Assembly: GCA_014885115.2 (NCBI GenBank) | Contig: WKLE02000675.1 | Location: 1-14,959 of the forward strand | Length of the DNA stretch: 14,959 nucleotides | Direction: 5' to 3' | Source: Asterionellopsis glacialis | Taxonomy: Eukaryota; Bacillariophyta; Plagiogrammaphyceae; Rhaphoneidales; Asterionellopsidaceae | In this document: positions 4,156-12,630 of the stretch, piece by piece | How positions within the stretch are numbered: position 1 is the first letter of the stretch | How the letters are laid out: each line of letters opens with the position of its first letter | Program-made: the position numbers and the translations under genes | Notes under the pieces: generated by a model | The model's input: only the letters and a program-made list of their open reading frames with translations | What the model was told of the DNA's origin: nothing | Database searches by the model: none

Positions 4156-5943
4156 CTACCACCCAGAGCAACAACTACATTCGACGGTGTCGTCCACATA
4201 AAGCGACTGCAATCGTCCACCATTGTTTGCGGTTAGCATACAAATTTCAGATGAAATTTCTCCCGTAAAACGATTGCTAGTCAAACCAAGATCTGTAAGA
4301 CGTGTCAATTTGCCTAATTCACTTGGGATGATTCCCGTGAGGTCGTTTTCGTACAAGGATATATGCCCTAATCGACTTAGTTCACCAACATAGGAAGGGA
4401 TGGTTCCAGTAAAACTATTTCTTTGGATTTCAATAGTTGTAAGTGATGTCATGGTCCCAATCTCGGAAGGTATAGTACCATGTAATTTATTCCCAAACAA
4501 TAGCAAACTAGTTAGTTTAACCATTGTACCAACTGTGGAAGGTATTGACCCTGAAAGATTATTACCTTGTAACCCAAGATGAGTCATTTTAGTAAAGCTT
4601 CCAAATTCAGGAGGTATGGTTCCACTCAATCCAGATTCATACGCATCAAAGTACTCCAAATTACTTAATCGTCCAAACTCTGATGGGATTGATGCCTGTA
4701 AGTAGTTGTTTGTTAAAGCGAGGTTTGTAAGACTTGTGAGCTCTCCAATCTCAGAAGGTAAGGGGCCAACGATATAGCCATGATATAGTGCAAGAGTCTC
4801 CAATGCTGTAAGTAATCCAATTTCACTTGGAATTGTCCCCTCAACATTATTACTGTTTAGATATAGCTCCACTACTTGACTGGATCTACAACCAATTCCT
4901 TCCCATTCACATACGCGAGTCTCTGACCCCCAACCATCATTATTGTTCCATTCAGGACCATTTAAAGCTTCATAAATAACCATGAGTGTGCTAACCATGT
5001 CATTAGAACTATTTGAAGTGGTGGGAGGGGATGTTTCTGGATTTTGCGTGACGGGTTCTGTTGTGGTTGTAATATCAGGAATGTTTGTGGTGGGAGACGA
5101 GGTTTTGGAATCTTGAGTTGCAGGTTCATTAGTGGCCGAATCATCGCCCTGTATGGGTACAGTAGGGGGGGGAGTTGTTGGTTCTTCAGTCGACGTTTCG
5201 TCACCACCGCTGCTACCTCTTTGTGACATAATCATTGCAAGTGCAACTGCAATTGCAACTCCAATGACCGAAATGAGAATACTGGCTACAAGCATCAACC
5301 GAACCGACTTGGGTGTCTCCTTTCTTTCTTTTCCATCTTCTGTAGGCATAACTTCGGCTGCCATTGGGACTGGAAATGGCACTTGAACCTGTGCCGTTGG
5401 AGCTTGGTCCTCGACTAGGAAAGCATGCACCATTGGATCATCACTCTCCTGTTGGTTTTGTTCGTGATCATCCTGGTTCTCTTCTTCTTGTGAAAGATCC
5501 TCGTCAGAGTCGACATTGACGATCGAAGAAGCACCAATACCCGGCCCTTCTATAGCTACTGCTCCAGGAGGCTGTTCCTGTTCTGTAGGAGGCTGTTCGT
5601 CTTCCCAGTCGTATTCTTCGTCGTTGACGTCGATTGAAATGATTGCAGGACCAAACTTTGAATTATCTTTTTTTCCGTGAATTTCGTCTACTGCAGTTTT
5701 ATGCCGCTGCTTCTTGTCTTTCCCTTCTCCATGGTTTTTAGGCTTCTTCAAGGCAACTTTTCTCTCCGTTGTTTCATTGTTTACGATTCGTTCGTTCGAC
5801 AGTGCCCAAGGAACCTCCGTCGGAAACGATTCTTTTCCGGTATTTCTCCGAGGAGGAGGCTTCAAAGATTCACATTGTCCGTCTTCCTCATTTTTTCTTG
5901 CTCCTAAAGCCAGTGGAGGCTTTTTGTTGATGGTGCGTTTCAT
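4156..5943 (-). CDS. Single-pass leucine-rich-repeat membrane protein
   Basis: Intronless, 595 residues; start ATG 5943 in the context CAACAATGA, stop TAG at 4156-4158. Residues 1-215 are a hydrophilic, basic then acidic N-terminal tail with PPGAVAIEGPG at about 124-134 and HAFLVEDQ further on. A single hydrophobic span (about 216-238, VASILISVIGVAIAVALAM) is followed by a Thr/Pro-rich stalk holding two imperfect repeats (EPATQDSKTSSPTT, EPVTQNPETSPPTT). From about 319 comes an LRR N-cap (ALNGPEWNNNDGW, CEWEGIGC) and about nine 24-residue plant-type LRRs with the pattern LxxLxLxxNxLxGxIPSEIG. The protein ends in a Cys-rich cap (VECSCCSGW). There is no kinase or other catalytic domain. The layout predicts a type II protein with the LRRs outside the cytoplasm. 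The ligand is unknown; protein or peptide recognition is the usual LRR role. It is divergent from the next gene and convergent with the AapJ-like gene, whose cytoplasmic tail has related motifs. Confidence 0.85.
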   Translation of the reverse strand: MKRTINKKPPLALGARKNEEDGQCESLKPPPRRNTGKESFPTEVPWALSNERIVNNETTERKVALKKPKNHGEGKDKKQRHKTAVDEIHGKKDNSKFGPAIISIDVNDEEYDWEDEQPPTEQEQPPGAVAIEGPGIGASSIVNVDSDEDLSQEEENQDDHEQNQQESDDPMVHAFLVEDQAPTAQVQVPFPVPMAAEVMPTEDGKERKETPKSVRLMLVASILISVIGVAIAVALAMIMSQRGSSGGDETSTEEPTTPPPTVPIQGDDSATNEPATQDSKTSSPTTNIPDITTTTEPVTQNPETSPPTTSNSSNDMVSTLMVIYEALNGPEWNNNDGWGSETRVCEWEGIGCRSSQVVELYLNSNNVEGTIPSEIGLLTALETLALYHGYIVGPLPSEIGELTSLTNLALTNNYLQASIPSEFGRLSNLEYFDAYESGLSGTIPPEFGSFTKMTHLGLQGNNLSGSIPSTVGTMVKLTSLLLFGNKLHGTIPSEIGTMTSLTTIEIQRNSFTGTIPSYVGELSRLGHISLYENDLTGIIPSELGKLTRLTDLGLTSNRFTGEISSEICMLTANNGGRLQSLYVDDTVECSCCSGW

Positions 5944-6303
5944 TGTTGAGAGGGTTTACTGCTATTTGTACTTTTTTTTTCGTTCTGATGTTTTTCTGTC
6001 AGTCAGACAATAAATTGTAGCCACCAACATTTTGAAGGGTTCGCATTCTCCTGCCTTGGACTGGAGTGTATCATTGTGCCGAACTTTCGGGGTTCGGGTT
6101 TTGAATTCATTAATCCTAACCCTAAAAATATATATCATGTACCTTACTCTGCTGCTGTTTTTCTTTTATATATTAGGGCTAATGTAAAGGAAAATGGTAA
6201 ACCTCATATCATTATTTCAAAGGGCACAGAACTTTTTTCTCTTTGACGTCCGACAAGGGAGGCCAGGGGAAGGGAAGGGAGAAGACAAAAGTTCATATTC
6301 ACA
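5944..6303. promoter_or_regulatory. Shared divergent promoter region
   Basis: This 360-base gap separates the start codons of the LRR gene (-) and the selenoprotein candidate (+), so both promoters and both 5' UTRs must lie here unless a distant first exon exists. It contains AT-rich runs (6125-6137, 6167-6176) and CTAACCCTA at 6116-6124, with the related TATTAGGGCTAA at 6171-6182 in opposite orientation. No specific factor site can be named. Confidence 0.45.
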
Positions 6304-7920
6304 ATGAAATTCCCAATGGCAACTTCTGCACTTCTTGCGTTAAAACCAGGTTTGCCTGCACTAGTTTTAAGACCCGAGTTGGCTAAAAGTCTGCAGAAAG
6401 CCAACGTCAATACCTGTCACGAAAGTGGTACTGATGCAAATGCAGTAGCTGTTGCCACGCTTGTGCGACCTTCTTTGTTATCGAATGATACAAAAGATGG
6501 CAAAGAAGACACTACGATGTTGTCATCTTCTTCTTCACGTGAGGAATGGATTTGTCGATTACCTAAAACTTCTAAACAACTTCGTGAGGCATACCAACTA
6601 GTTCATGTTTCCCCAAAAAACATCCATCCAATTTTACTCAACAATGAAGTTATAAATGCTTCTAACGGTGATAATGTTGAAAATCTTTTAGATGGCTCAC
6701 TTTTTCCTTCTGTGTCATTTACCAAAAAAATGGAGGACGAGGATAATGAACAATATGACCATCATCATAATCGTCATCGTCGTACAAAATCAATCAAAAT
6801 CAATGCTGACTTTGTCACTTGTACACAATGACCTCATGGGTATATAGGAAAGAGGAATATTGTTGAAGCTATACAACTTTTTCATGAAAAGAATCCTGAT
6901 TGTGCTTTACGCGTGAATGTTGTTCGTCATCCATTTTCCTTTCGAGGAGGTCATCATGCTGCAACTAGGATGTTGAAAAGTCGTAACAAGAGGGAAAACG
7001 AGGGAGATGGCAGCGAGAGTGACGACTCAAAAGCATCATCATGGAAGTGGCATGATGATCTATCTATATATGCTGGTGATGAAATACAAAAATATTTGTT
7101 GTCCATGGGAATATCGCATCGTGATGTACTAATGCTACGATCACCAGGTGGATTAAAAGAAGTTCTTTCTCTGGTCACAGATGACAACTACGGCAGCAAT
7201 AACGGAGAACTGGAATCATCATCATCACTAAGCGTATTTCAACAAAAACATTACAAACACATTTTGGTGGCTTTAGAAGAGTTTTCAATCCAAAAAGGAT
7301 ACAATCCGAGATTGACAAAATCCACAATTTCCAAGGCAATGGAAAGTCTTCATCAATCGAATAATGATGATTTAAGATCATGTCGAGGAAAACAAATAAG
7401 TGAATTAGATGTGATTCTTGGTGATTATTATAGAAAGGGTCTTGCTAATCTTGGTCAATCTGTTGGAATTGACTTTGATTTTAATGTTGATTTTTGTTGG
7501 TATCCTGTGCAATCACAACGATTATTATTTTATGCATCAAAGTTTGGTGCACAAGAAGCCTATGCGGATGCTTTAGCTCGACGTCACTTTACACAAGGTC
7601 AAGCATCAGGAACTATTGAAACTGTCATTGATGCTGCTGTGGAAGTGGGTCTTTATCGTCAAGATATTGTTGAGTTTTTAGACAGCAATGAATATTATGA
7701 CGATGTATGCCAAAGTTATCAAGATACAGTCGGTAAACACAACATCCATTCGATTCCTTTTTTCATATTTAATGGTCCCCATACAAATGGAGGGATGTTT
7801 CGTAAAGATGGCCCTGGAAGTGGTGAACAGATTGTTAGAGGATCTGGAAATGTAAATCAATTCCTTAATGTCTTCGAAAGAATCCAATCTGAAATGATTT
7901 TGAATGGTGATCTTTATTAA
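6304..7920 (+). CDS. Putative selenoprotein, DsbA/FrnE-type thioredoxin-fold oxidoreductase with CxxU motif
   Basis: One continuous frame from ATG 6304 to TAA 7918-7920, interrupted only by TGA at 6829-6831 (codon 176). Read as selenocysteine it gives 538 residues. Around the TGA the protein reads DFV-T-C-T-Q-U-PHG-YIGKR, so Cys173 and residue 176 form a CxxU motif. This sits where FrnE-type DsbA proteins have CPWC followed by YIGKR. Downstream features fit the family: RHPFSFRGG at about 207-215, a helical region, SIPFF with the expected cis-Pro at residue 485, and a C-terminal FLNVFERIQ helix. The DsbA-like part (about 166-535) is longer than the usual 210-230 residues because of a hydrophilic insertion near 220-330. 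Residues 1-165 are unrecognised, with a Ser run and a His-rich stretch just before the domain. No clear signal peptide is seen. A SECIS-like fold follows at 7977-8045. Likely role: thiol-disulfide or selenenylsulfide redox chemistry; substrate unknown. Alternatives are a pseudogene, a sequencing error or a nonsense mutation. Confidence 0.75.
6829..6831 (+). other. In-frame TGA, candidate selenocysteine codon
   Basis: This is the sole stop in a 539-codon frame (538 sense or Sec codons plus the final TAA). It falls in the redox loop of the thioredoxin fold, three residues after a Cys (C-T-Q-TGA). The DsbA-like homology continues in the same frame on both sides: DFV before it, YIGKR after it. 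No GT-AG intron that removes the TGA and keeps this frame was found by eye. Confidence 0.7.
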
Positions 7921-7961
7921 CACCTATCTTATTGTGTGGCAGCGTGTTCTCATGAGTCTGA

Positions 7962-8070
7962 ACAATACTAACCGTAATGACGGTGCAAAAGAGGATAGAA
8001 GTGTGCAGCATATATCGAATGCACTCATTTCCTTTTTGTACCTGACGTCGTCCAAAACGTGGAGTTTTGT
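7962..8070 (+). ncRNA. SECIS-like element in the 3' UTR (candidate)
   Basis: Starting 56 nt after the stop codon, AUGA (7977-7980) and UGA (8043-8045) could form the non-Watson-Crick SECIS core. Between them 7982-7995 pairs with 8030-8042 in 13 base pairs (12 Watson-Crick, one G-U, G7991 bulged). Above this is an internal loop with unpaired AA at 7999-8000, then a five-pair mini-helix (8003-8007 with 8020-8024) closing a 12-nt loop, as in form II SECIS. Below the core, 7962-7969 can pair with 8063-8070 at 7 of 8 positions. The caveat is spacing: about 18 nt from AUGA to the AA, longer than the roughly 11-13 typical of known elements. Folded by hand, not computed. Confidence 0.45.
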
Positions 8071-8288
8071 ATGCATGTGCGATAACCCTTATTTAAGTCC
8101 TCTTGGTGTTGTACTAGCATGGCCGTCAATTTGGAAGAAATCATTGTTTGATGTATGAGACTATGTTCAATATAATAATATTTTTTTCTTAAATTTGTAA
8201 CATTTTGCTGATGCCAACTGCGTGAAAAGGGGTAGAGTAAAAGCTGTTTAAAATTGCTTTCTCGTTTTTATTTGGAGTTAAAAAGCAT

Positions 8289-8317
8289 TCCATGCTAACA
8301 ACAGCACAGTGACACCT
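8289..8317. repeat. 29-base dispersed repeat, copy 1
   Basis: Begins TCCATGCTAACAACAGCACA. It matches 8770-8798 at 28 of 29 positions, while the flanks differ. It lies in the intergenic region 3' of the selenoprotein candidate. Function unknown. Confidence 0.65.
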
Positions 8318-8769
8318 GATTTTCTTGTTATGCTGGCTCCAATAGTTCAATCGCCTACTTGCAACTGTAATTTTTTTTACCTGCATCAGTTTTTTTAGAA
8401 TATAAACAGATCTTCTTTAAAATATCTTTTTATAATTTGTTTATCACCTTTGAAATTCCATCGAGATGATAGAGATATACACCCATATCACTGCCTTTCA
8501 CACCCATCAAATCACATACAGTCTGTTTCTAAATTTCTTGTTCTTGTTCGAGATTTTGAATCAAATTTGTATACAGTACGAGGCCATAAAGTACGGACCT
8601 ATCCCATAACGTTTCAAAATTGCACTATCTTCCTCATCTAAAGGCTTTGATGCATTGACGTTACGTACCTAATTGCATTTGCTTACAGTAAACTATCAAA
8701 CGCTTGAGACATGGACATCCCATGAGAAGGTGCCTGTTAAGTTAGCAAGAACGGACCAATACGAACAGC

Positions 8770-8798
8770 TCCATGCTAACAAAAGCACAGTGACACCT
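8770..8798. repeat. 29-base dispersed repeat, copy 2
   Basis: Begins TCCATGCTAACAAAAGCACA. Same orientation as copy 1, 481 bases away, one mismatch (A for C). Confidence 0.65.
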
Positions 8799-9485
8799 CA
8801 AGAATGTTGTTATTGTTATAACAGCTTGTCGGAAACCTTTTGCAAACCCGTCTGAATTATGGCACTTTCAACTGTGCATTCAACGTCAAATTCAATCTGT
8901 CAACAATGATAGACGAAGCCAAGGGTAAGTTGAACTCTGAAACAAGGAAGATAATAAACCACCCTTTCGAGTCGACACGGAACCTTAAAGAGAATGATCT
9001 GTACATTCTTCACAAGTTTCATAGAAACTCCAGCGACATGGGATCTTTTTGGACGAGACTAATAAACCACTCTATCTACCTTAAAAGGTGAAAACTTTGG
9101 AAGGATAACCTTCATGGATAAAATCTTGGTTGAGGAATCACTCTCATTTTTATATTTGTTGGACTCTAATTTTAGTGGTATGATTTATATGCGAATGATA
9201 CTGTGCTTGTCTGAAACCAATTTATAATACAGTAAGGATAGACTCTAAGATATGTTGTACAGAGCTTTTTTTCAAAACTGGTGTTTATGTGTGCGGTATG
9301 TGGACATGATTTCCTTGACGCATGTTCGAAGTACTATTTGGAATGAATGTCACCAGGATTCGTCTCGTCTTGGGTTCAACAACCTTTAAGACCGGATATC
9401 TTTGACAAAGGAATTCACTCTTCCATGCTATTACACTAACGTATTCCATTTTTAGATTGCGTTGTTCGTGTTACAAGATCTTCAT

Positions 9486-10169
9486 TTAAGCGCTCATGGC
9501 AGCTAATGGTTGTTGAACATCCCATAAGGCTTGAACACTTTCCTTAATTGAATGTTCATGTTCTTCACGAAAAGCTGCCCATTCTTCGGATGTTCTAGTT
9601 TGAGCTTGTGAAATAGTGTCTTTGAGCTGTTGTTGAAAACCAGATGCACCTGCCACGCTTGCAATACGTTCGCCATTCCTCCATACCTGCATGAGAGGAA
9701 AACGATCGATGCCCAGTCTCTTCAGCTTTTTCGTGACTAATCGCGATGATTCCATCTTCGCAAATTGTACTTTCTGTTCACCCTCGTTATGCAACTTGGC
9801 AATCTTGGCATATCTTGGCATTGCAACCTTGCATTTTTTGCAATAGTTTGCGTAGAAGTAGACAACCGTATCTTGATCCTCAGGCGCGTTTTCGATCATT
9901 TGAGCCAAATCTTCAAATCCGGAAAGTTCTTTGAGGGCCGATGATGATGACTTGGAAGAAGTGGAGGAGGGCGCATTCACTGGCGTTAAATTATCAGGTG
10001 TTACAGGAATTGCTGATTCAGGAATTGCATAGCCAAGCTGGGTGGGAGTTACTGCCACCAACGATCGTCCACTGGAAGAAACGAAAGACTTCCCGAAAGA
10101 AGCGAAGGCTGCAGTATTCGTGATGAGGCACATCAGGAGGCATGCAATTTTCAGTGTAAATGAATTCAT
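9486..10169 (-). CDS. Thioredoxin-like protein, probably plastid-targeted
   Basis: Intronless, 227 residues, ATG at 10167-10169, stop TAA at 9486-9488. Residues 4-21 form a hydrophobic signal peptide ending in TNTAA|FASFGK. The Phe at the predicted +1 position followed by a Ser/Arg/Lys-rich stretch matches the bipartite presequence used by diatoms for import into complex plastids. A Ser/Thr/Pro spacer (about 55-80) leads to a thioredoxin fold (about 83-185) with VVYFYANYC, active site C110-K-K-C113, and cis-Pro158 in RFPLMQVW. The C-terminal 40 residues are helical and charged (EEWAAFREEHEHSIKESV). CKKC is less common than the classical CGPC, and the conserved Trp before the site is replaced by Tyr or Asn, so this is an atypical thioredoxin. 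Expected role is dithiol-disulfide exchange in the plastid; the partner is unknown. Confidence 0.85.
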   Translation of the reverse strand: MNSFTLKIACLLMCLITNTAAFASFGKSFVSSSGRSLVAVTPTQLGYAIPESAIPVTPDNLTPVNAPSSTSSKSSSSALKELSGFEDLAQMIENAPEDQDTVVYFYANYCKKCKVAMPRYAKIAKLHNEGEQKVQFAKMESSRLVTKKLKRLGIDRFPLMQVWRNGERIASVAGASGFQQQLKDTISQAQTRTSEEWAAFREEHEHSIKESVQALWDVQQPLAAMSA

Positions 10170-11554: not shown

Positions 11555-12630
11555 TCGCAAAATGCAAAACCTGGCAAATTCACAACTGAGGAAGTTGAAG
11601 GAGAAGCTCTTGTACATTTTGAAGGTAAAATATACCTACCCAAGAGACTTCAACAATGTGTCATAGCGTGGTATCATGAATACTTAGCACATGCAGGAAT
11701 GACACGTACAGAAGCAACCATACAACAGCTTTTCACTTGGCCCAAGAAGCTAAGAACACATGTAGAGAACTTCTGTAAAACATGTAAACAATTTCAGTTC
11801 AGTAAAAGAAATGTAAGAAATATGGACACTTACCTTGTAAAGAGACTGAAATCCTGAAATGGAAACGAGTCCATAGAGACCTAATTGGAAAATACAATAT
11901 TAAGTCTGATTCAGGTACACGTACACTACAATGTCTTGCTATGATAGATCCCACCACATGTCGGTTCAAAATCAAAGCAGTTAAAGACAAAATAGCTGAC
12001 ACTGTAATAGAAGCATTCCACTCTACCTGGCTAAGCCAGTATCCACATCCATGGTATGTAGGCTACAACAGTGGCTCAGAGTTTGAGAGCATATTTGATC
12101 AAACAAGATGAAACTTTGGACTTGAGAAAAAGCTGACAACTACTTATAATCCCCAATACAATTGTATCATAGAACAGGTACACCAAGTCATAGGTAACTC
12201 CTTATGTGCACTTGATATAAGTGAATCCACCAATCCACCTACTATAAGAGATGATGAACCATGGGAAAATAAACTTAGTTCTGTAGCATGGGCTATATGC
12301 AGTACATATCATACTACCTTAGAAGCTATGCCAGGACAACTTGTATTTGGACATAACATGTTACTACCAATTACATTTAGAGCTAATTGGGCTTGTATCA
12401 ATATTAAGAAACAAACCCTGATTAATCAAAATAACCAAAAAGAAAACTGTAAGCAGCAACACCATGTATATTCTGTAAGTGACCTACTTATGCTAGAGAA
12501 GCTGGGAAAGATAGCTAAATTGGACAGACCTTGTACTGGTCCTCATGAAGTTATTCAAGCATTTATGAACAATACCACTGTATTCATCCATAGAGACATC
12601 ATAGAAGAGATGGTTAACATCCGCTGGTAA
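11555..12630 (+). mobile_element. Degenerate Ty3/Gypsy-type retrotransposon integrase
   Basis: The 3' part of a retroelement pol gene, broken in two places. 11555 to about 11805 encodes an H2C2 zinc-binding domain (WYHEYLAHAG, then ENFCKTCKQF). A frameshift near 11805-11815 is followed by the start of the catalytic core, with the first Asp in KRVHRDLIGKY. The second catalytic position, normally D in a DNGSEF-like motif, is N (GYNSGSEFE). A TGA at 12109-12111 interrupts the frame just before FGLEKKLTTTYNPQYN. The third acidic residue survives in CIIEQVHQVIGN. The C-terminal part (TYHTTLEAMPGQLVFG, then VNIRW) runs to TAA 12628-12630. Reverse transcriptase, RNase H, protease and gag are not seen in the window, and LTRs could not be identified, so this is an immobile relic. 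The family call rests on motif recognition. Confidence 0.8.

Follow-up and report, generated by a model that had tools for sequence, protein, structure and literature searches.

The window analysed here, a 14,959-nucleotide stretch of DNA from the diatom Asterionellopsis glacialis, contains on its forward strand a coding frame (6304–7920) that is interrupted once by a TGA (6829–6831), as the initial annotation had described, and ends in TAA. Translated through the TGA, with selenocysteine (Sec) proposed at codon 176, the frame gives a protein of 538 residues, and both of its halves have homologues. The upstream half (6304–6828, 175 residues) holds a conserved N-terminal region (6304–6780), in which the stretches LALRPG, TLVRP, CRLPK and ENLLDGSLFP are conserved, and closes with strand β1 and an invariant ADFVTCTQ. 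Within this last motif, the codon for Cys173 (6820–6822), a candidate partner of Sec, stands three codons 5′ of the TGA, which is itself followed by codons for Pro-His-Gly (6832–6840). A Pfam search places a DSBA match (PF01323, E = 2.8e-12) exclusively 3′ of the TGA, at residues 374–492 (7423–7779), the C-terminal part of the thioredoxin fold, while Pfam gave nothing for the upstream half at E 1 and an NCBIfam search returned two weak matches, both meaningless. We treat a SECIS-like hairpin on the same strand (7977–8045) as part of the feature, though it lies beyond 6304–7920.

Other features of the window include a leucine-rich-repeat protein of 595 residues (4156–5943, reverse strand) and, near the selenoprotein gene, a protein with a thioredoxin domain whose site is an ordinary CKKC (9486–10169, reverse strand). 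A 29-nucleotide direct repeat (8289–8317 and 8770–8798), 97% identical and 481 nucleotides apart, lies 3′ of the gene. An open reading frame of 100 residues (12328–12630, forward strand) resembles, on visual inspection, the end of a retroelement polyprotein and gave no Pfam match at E 0.001.

Comparison with the solved FrnE of Deinococcus radiodurans (PDB 5cnw, 5cp1) by phmmer gave E = 1.9e-5 over two aligned stretches, residues 162–210 and 388–496, and placed residue 176 over the first Cys of CPWCYIGKR; the stretch that spans the TGA (162–210) contributes only 5.3 bits and is not significant by itself. A profile made from the N-termini of 11 bacterial FrnE proteins was then slid over all 538 residues, with U176 scored as neutral. 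The best position covers residues 166–193 with a score of 36.8, compared to 8.8 for the runner-up, and sets U176 on the FrnE catalytic Cys. None of 2000 shuffled proteins reached 36.8, so the FrnE register is far beyond chance. The same register is seen when the protein is aligned to bacterial FrnE together with two paralogues from the same genome, where DFVTCTQ-U-PHGYIGKR lies over SDxx-C-PWCYIGKR, such that U176 corresponds to the first FrnE Cys, Gly179 to the second, and Cys173 to the FrnE Asp. The register adopted here was taken from an alignment free of truncated homologue rows, together with the position scan. Alignments that mixed upstream and downstream halves or included truncated homologues misplaced the active site and were set aside, as was a MAFFT alignment that disagrees with this register by putting the bacterial CPWC on the WKWHDDLSIYAG stretch. 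Two earlier suggestions are thus borne out: FrnE-like sequence of the DsbA family flanks the TGA on both sides (profile scan and phmmer), and the TGA before PHGYIGKR occupies the site of CPWCYIGKR in FrnE (phmmer, profile scan and alignment).

The CPWC of FrnE therefore reads U-P-H-G, and the second catalytic Cys is lost. DSBA-domain homology and the FrnE fold are present and a CPxC dithiol is absent, with Sec first and Gly second; the window protein is homologous to FrnE and of its fold, yet is no canonical dithiol FrnE. The initial annotation had read the site as CxxU, which holds insofar as Cys173 stands three residues before U but overlooks the loss of the second FrnE Cys at Gly179. The protein retains an IPFF loop, which we take to carry the cis-proline in this fold. 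An hhalign comparison of the downstream profile with FrnE gave a probability of 99.6 over 136 columns of the C-terminal part, a region outside the active site. Across the TGA, the structure predicted for the read-through product agrees with FrnE, in a model whose input alignment contained FrnE sequences, and in this model each half alone is without part of the thioredoxin fold. A first structure model, with a mean confidence of 50.2, was discarded.

A lone stop in an otherwise open frame, seen on one contig of one assembly, resembles a young pseudogene, and the TGA could accordingly reflect a disabling mutation, or a mistake in the assembly, in an FrnE gene of the ordinary Cys type. The homologues argue against this. 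A search with the upstream half found nine proteins at E ≤ 1, seven of them at E ≤ 1e-3, and all nine, at identities of 37 to 98%, have ADFVTCTQ as their C-terminal end, exactly before the TGA of the window; the stops of these homologues are known from the protein ends, that is, by position and not by codon. The closest, P0068 (98% identity), ends at the same residue as the upstream half of the window protein and may come from this species or a sister species. A profile search with the downstream half found 66 proteins at E ≤ 1e-3 among 7994 candidates scored. The close homologues (E ≤ 3e-85) begin at residue 186 or later in 13 of 13 cases; the other 53 match at E 3e-9 or weaker with 22–32% identity, and all 15 of these whose N-termini were inspected carry CPWC or CPFC. 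A search for Cys homologues had been proposed earlier as a check, and among the database homologues it yielded no Cys version of this branch that spans the TGA at full length, although a protein of that length is within the searched range. With the same stop residue in nine of nine upstream homologues, the downstream half still conserved and no Cys form found, a mutation or assembly error is very improbable.

The two halves occur as separate entries in the protein databases, as the initial annotation had forecast, and since the stop stands at the same place in the relatives found, ordinary annotation cuts the enzyme in two. Separate entries, along with the disregard of introns by six-frame tools, are also what one would see if an intron removed the TGA or if the halves were two genes. 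However, P0069, an upstream half that stops where the TGA stands, and P0002, a downstream half, are named as complete open reading frames (g.16127 and g.16126) of one MMETSP transcript, Transcript_10514, and for both members of a second pair of proteins, P0075 and P0013, the longest contig is given as 4157 bases. FrnE homology also crosses the TGA in one frame, and either half alone would be an incomplete thioredoxin fold, leaving an intron or two separate genes barely plausible. Judged from sequence, an intron over the TGA, an assembly error and relaxed downstream selection, each of which had been named beforehand as capable of overturning the selenoprotein reading, appear to fit badly with the same stop residue in ten upstream open reading frames and the strong protein conservation downstream.

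Within these upstream halves, Cys173 is invariant (10/10), and a census of cysteines found none conserved downstream of Sec. Searches for relatives at the DNA level gave no matches to the coding pattern across the TGA in viral_contigs or genome_contigs, and none confirmed in either set with the protein profile. A tblastn search of phages with the downstream half gave only two weak matches, annotated as protein-disulfide isomerase.

The 40.3 Mb genome encodes tRNA-Sec, SepSecS and eEFSec. The tRNA-Sec (L002) has the anticodon TCA, and the Rfam model used to find it also matched in all 14 controls, in five of them over the cut-off; a second match over the cut-off in this genome (L003) is a tRNA-Ser according to ARAGORN. 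SepSecS was matched at E = 6e-109. A search with SelB gave nothing over the curated cut-off and matched all 14 controls as well, and its top match (L058) reads by eye like an ordinary EF-Tu. The eEFSec call consequently rests on L060, a gene in which one exon matches solved eEFSec (PDB 5izk) at E = 6e-57.

Frames with one TGA each were recognised for SelT (L008), two glutathione peroxidases (GPx; L014 and L016), SelM (L017), MsrA (L022) and two DsbA-type proteins (L010 and L012), and we take the TGA in each of these families to be the Sec site. The DsbA-type frames, both on the minus strand, read SDTV-U-PWC and SDLA-U-PWC, and U176 of the window protein aligns with the U of these UPWC paralogues. 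Separately, a 375-residue open frame with tandem Rdx (SelW-like) domains (L006:1501–1734 and L007:1501–1740) has both domains in the Cys form, CTGC.

In favour of TGA being a sense codon throughout this genome, none of 13 terminators is TGA (nine TAA, four TAG; a 14th locus gave no stop). Seven of these 13, however, come from selenoprotein genes, that of the window among them, which would not be expected to end in TGA. In addition, 35 of 37 matches to light-harvesting proteins, a set that points to a photosynthetic alga, nine of ten MsrA-family matches and SepSecS run without an internal stop, while the recognised selenoprotein frames hold a single TGA each. A genome-wide reassignment of TGA is exceedingly improbable.

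The hairpin at 7977–8045 begins 56 nucleotides after the stop codon and consists of ATGAC, 61 nucleotides enclosed by a helix of 13 pairs that has a single bulged base, and TGA, with an inner energy of −19.7 kcal/mol. Folding of 7970–8052 gave z = −2.7, with two of 200 shuffles as good. Its core, ATGACGG...CCTGA, is shared with candidate elements found 3′ of four other selenoprotein genes in this genome, SelT (L008), GPx (L014), SelM (L017) and DsbA (L010), while the second GPx (L016) has a variant, ATGA...TTGA. No SECIS-like element was recognised at MsrA (L022), and the contig of the second DsbA-type gene (L012) ends before the 3′ UTR. The window hairpin has a weak lower stem, and its inner length of 61 nucleotides exceeds the 35–44 of the four others; the pattern ATGACGG N25–55 CCTGA had no match in the window because its gap there is 57.

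A strict descriptor (ATGAC, 28–62 nucleotides closed from end to end by nine pairs or more, TGA), whose upper length was chosen knowing the 61 nucleotides of the window, was found in 16 of 5000 shuffles of the 900-nucleotide UTR. It occurred three times in 284,968 strand-bases from 46 other genome loci, a few of them overlapping, with none of the three having GG/CC closure or an energy below −10.3. Of six further selenoprotein genes whose 3′ end could be read, just three carry it, namely SelT, GPx L014 and SelM. By itself, the sequence core shows hardly any enrichment genome-wide (79 matches against 69 for the reversed control), and five of the 79 stand 3′ of the four selenoprotein genes. Rfam searches gave five sub-threshold matches in 6000–9500, none of them a SECIS, and no match to SECIS_1 over the genome, a result shared by the control genomes. 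ATGACGG...CCTGA may represent a simple SECIS core for this alga that is missed by the Rfam model. A covariance model built from the other SECIS elements was abandoned, as its MAFFT alignment was structurally wrong. The 3′ region of SelT holds two SECIS-like copies (L008:2077–2156 and L008:2312–2391), 89% identical over 80 nucleotides and 235 nucleotides apart, the second with a much weaker helix (−5.7 compared to −15.0).

Conservation of the stop position alone cannot separate Sec from read-through with an ordinary amino acid at the stop. The residue, however, sits on the catalytic Cys, two paralogues in the same genome likewise have TGA before PWC, a SECIS-like element follows downstream and the Sec machinery is present, all of which make ordinary read-through highly unlikely. 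The proposal of the initial annotation that codon 176 specifies Sec is thereby supported, at the level of sequence, by the stop position, the catalytic-Cys register, the SECIS-like element and the machinery. The in-frame UGA occupies a redox position, the coding sequence to either side of it is conserved, and the window gene is very probably a real selenoprotein. We infer, with a probability of roughly 93%, a selenoprotein of the FrnE/DsbA class in which tRNA-Sec and eEFSec decode UGA 176, aided by the putative 3′ UTR SECIS.

In the proposed mechanism, tRNA-Sec and eEFSec would read UGA 176, helped by the putative SECIS at 7977–8045, and Sec would be placed at the start of helix α1, the position of the nucleophilic Cys of FrnE. 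The Sec may then form a selenenylsulfide, either with Cys173 (C-T-Q-U) or with a thiol from outside the protein, for example glutathione, and the enzyme would presumably act as a thiol-disulfide oxidoreductase. Cycling via Cys173 or an outside thiol is most likely, given that Gly takes the place of the second CPWC cysteine and that none of the downstream cysteines is conserved, and the invariance of Cys173 suggests that C173-T-Q-U176 is probably the redox pair. We further propose, tentatively and at slightly less than even odds, that these proteins form a Sec-only algal branch of FrnE in which the catalytic pair has been turned round, from UxxC to CxxUxxG, by loss of the resolving Cys at +3 and gain of a new Cys at −3. 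If true, the selenenylsulfide would form on the opposite flank of the nucleophile, in a family whose members are split by standard annotation. Such a protein would be a natural thioredoxin-fold site that kept the position of the nucleophile while the resolving Cys seemingly moved, and the branch, found in transcriptome and metagenome data, appears to be Sec-only and is present in the searched databases only as separate halves.

DsbA belongs to the Sec families with the widest distribution in algae, and diatoms have 20–44 selenoprotein genes, according to the sections available of PMC7539508. The 16 selenoproteins of Thalassiosira pseudonana were listed by Lobanov and colleagues, in a report whose accessible text has no DsbA (PMC2375036). 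The algal Sec-containing DsbA family (PMC7539508) is, like the window protein, a selenoprotein of the DsbA class, and the A. glacialis genome has two UPWC members (L010 and L012). The window gene differs in that it has no second Cys and has a Cys at −3, while the sections available of that paper give no DsbA motif. The window gene looks like a new variant of this family. Compared to bacterial FrnE-type DsbA proteins and D. radiodurans FrnE (PDB 5cnw, 5cp1, 5xwh), it has U-P-H-G for CPWC and T-C for the preceding SD, and adds a long, poorly predicted helical insert and the conserved N-terminal region. SelT (CVSU) and SelM (CSGU), both encoded in this genome, also place a Cys at −3 from Sec within a thioredoxin-like context, but no sequence relation to them was seen, and the Sec of the window protein is at the first, not the second, ancestral CxxC position. 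Kappa glutathione transferase, HCCA isomerase and DsbM are weaker matches than FrnE, and the UPHGYIGKR motif is FrnE-like.
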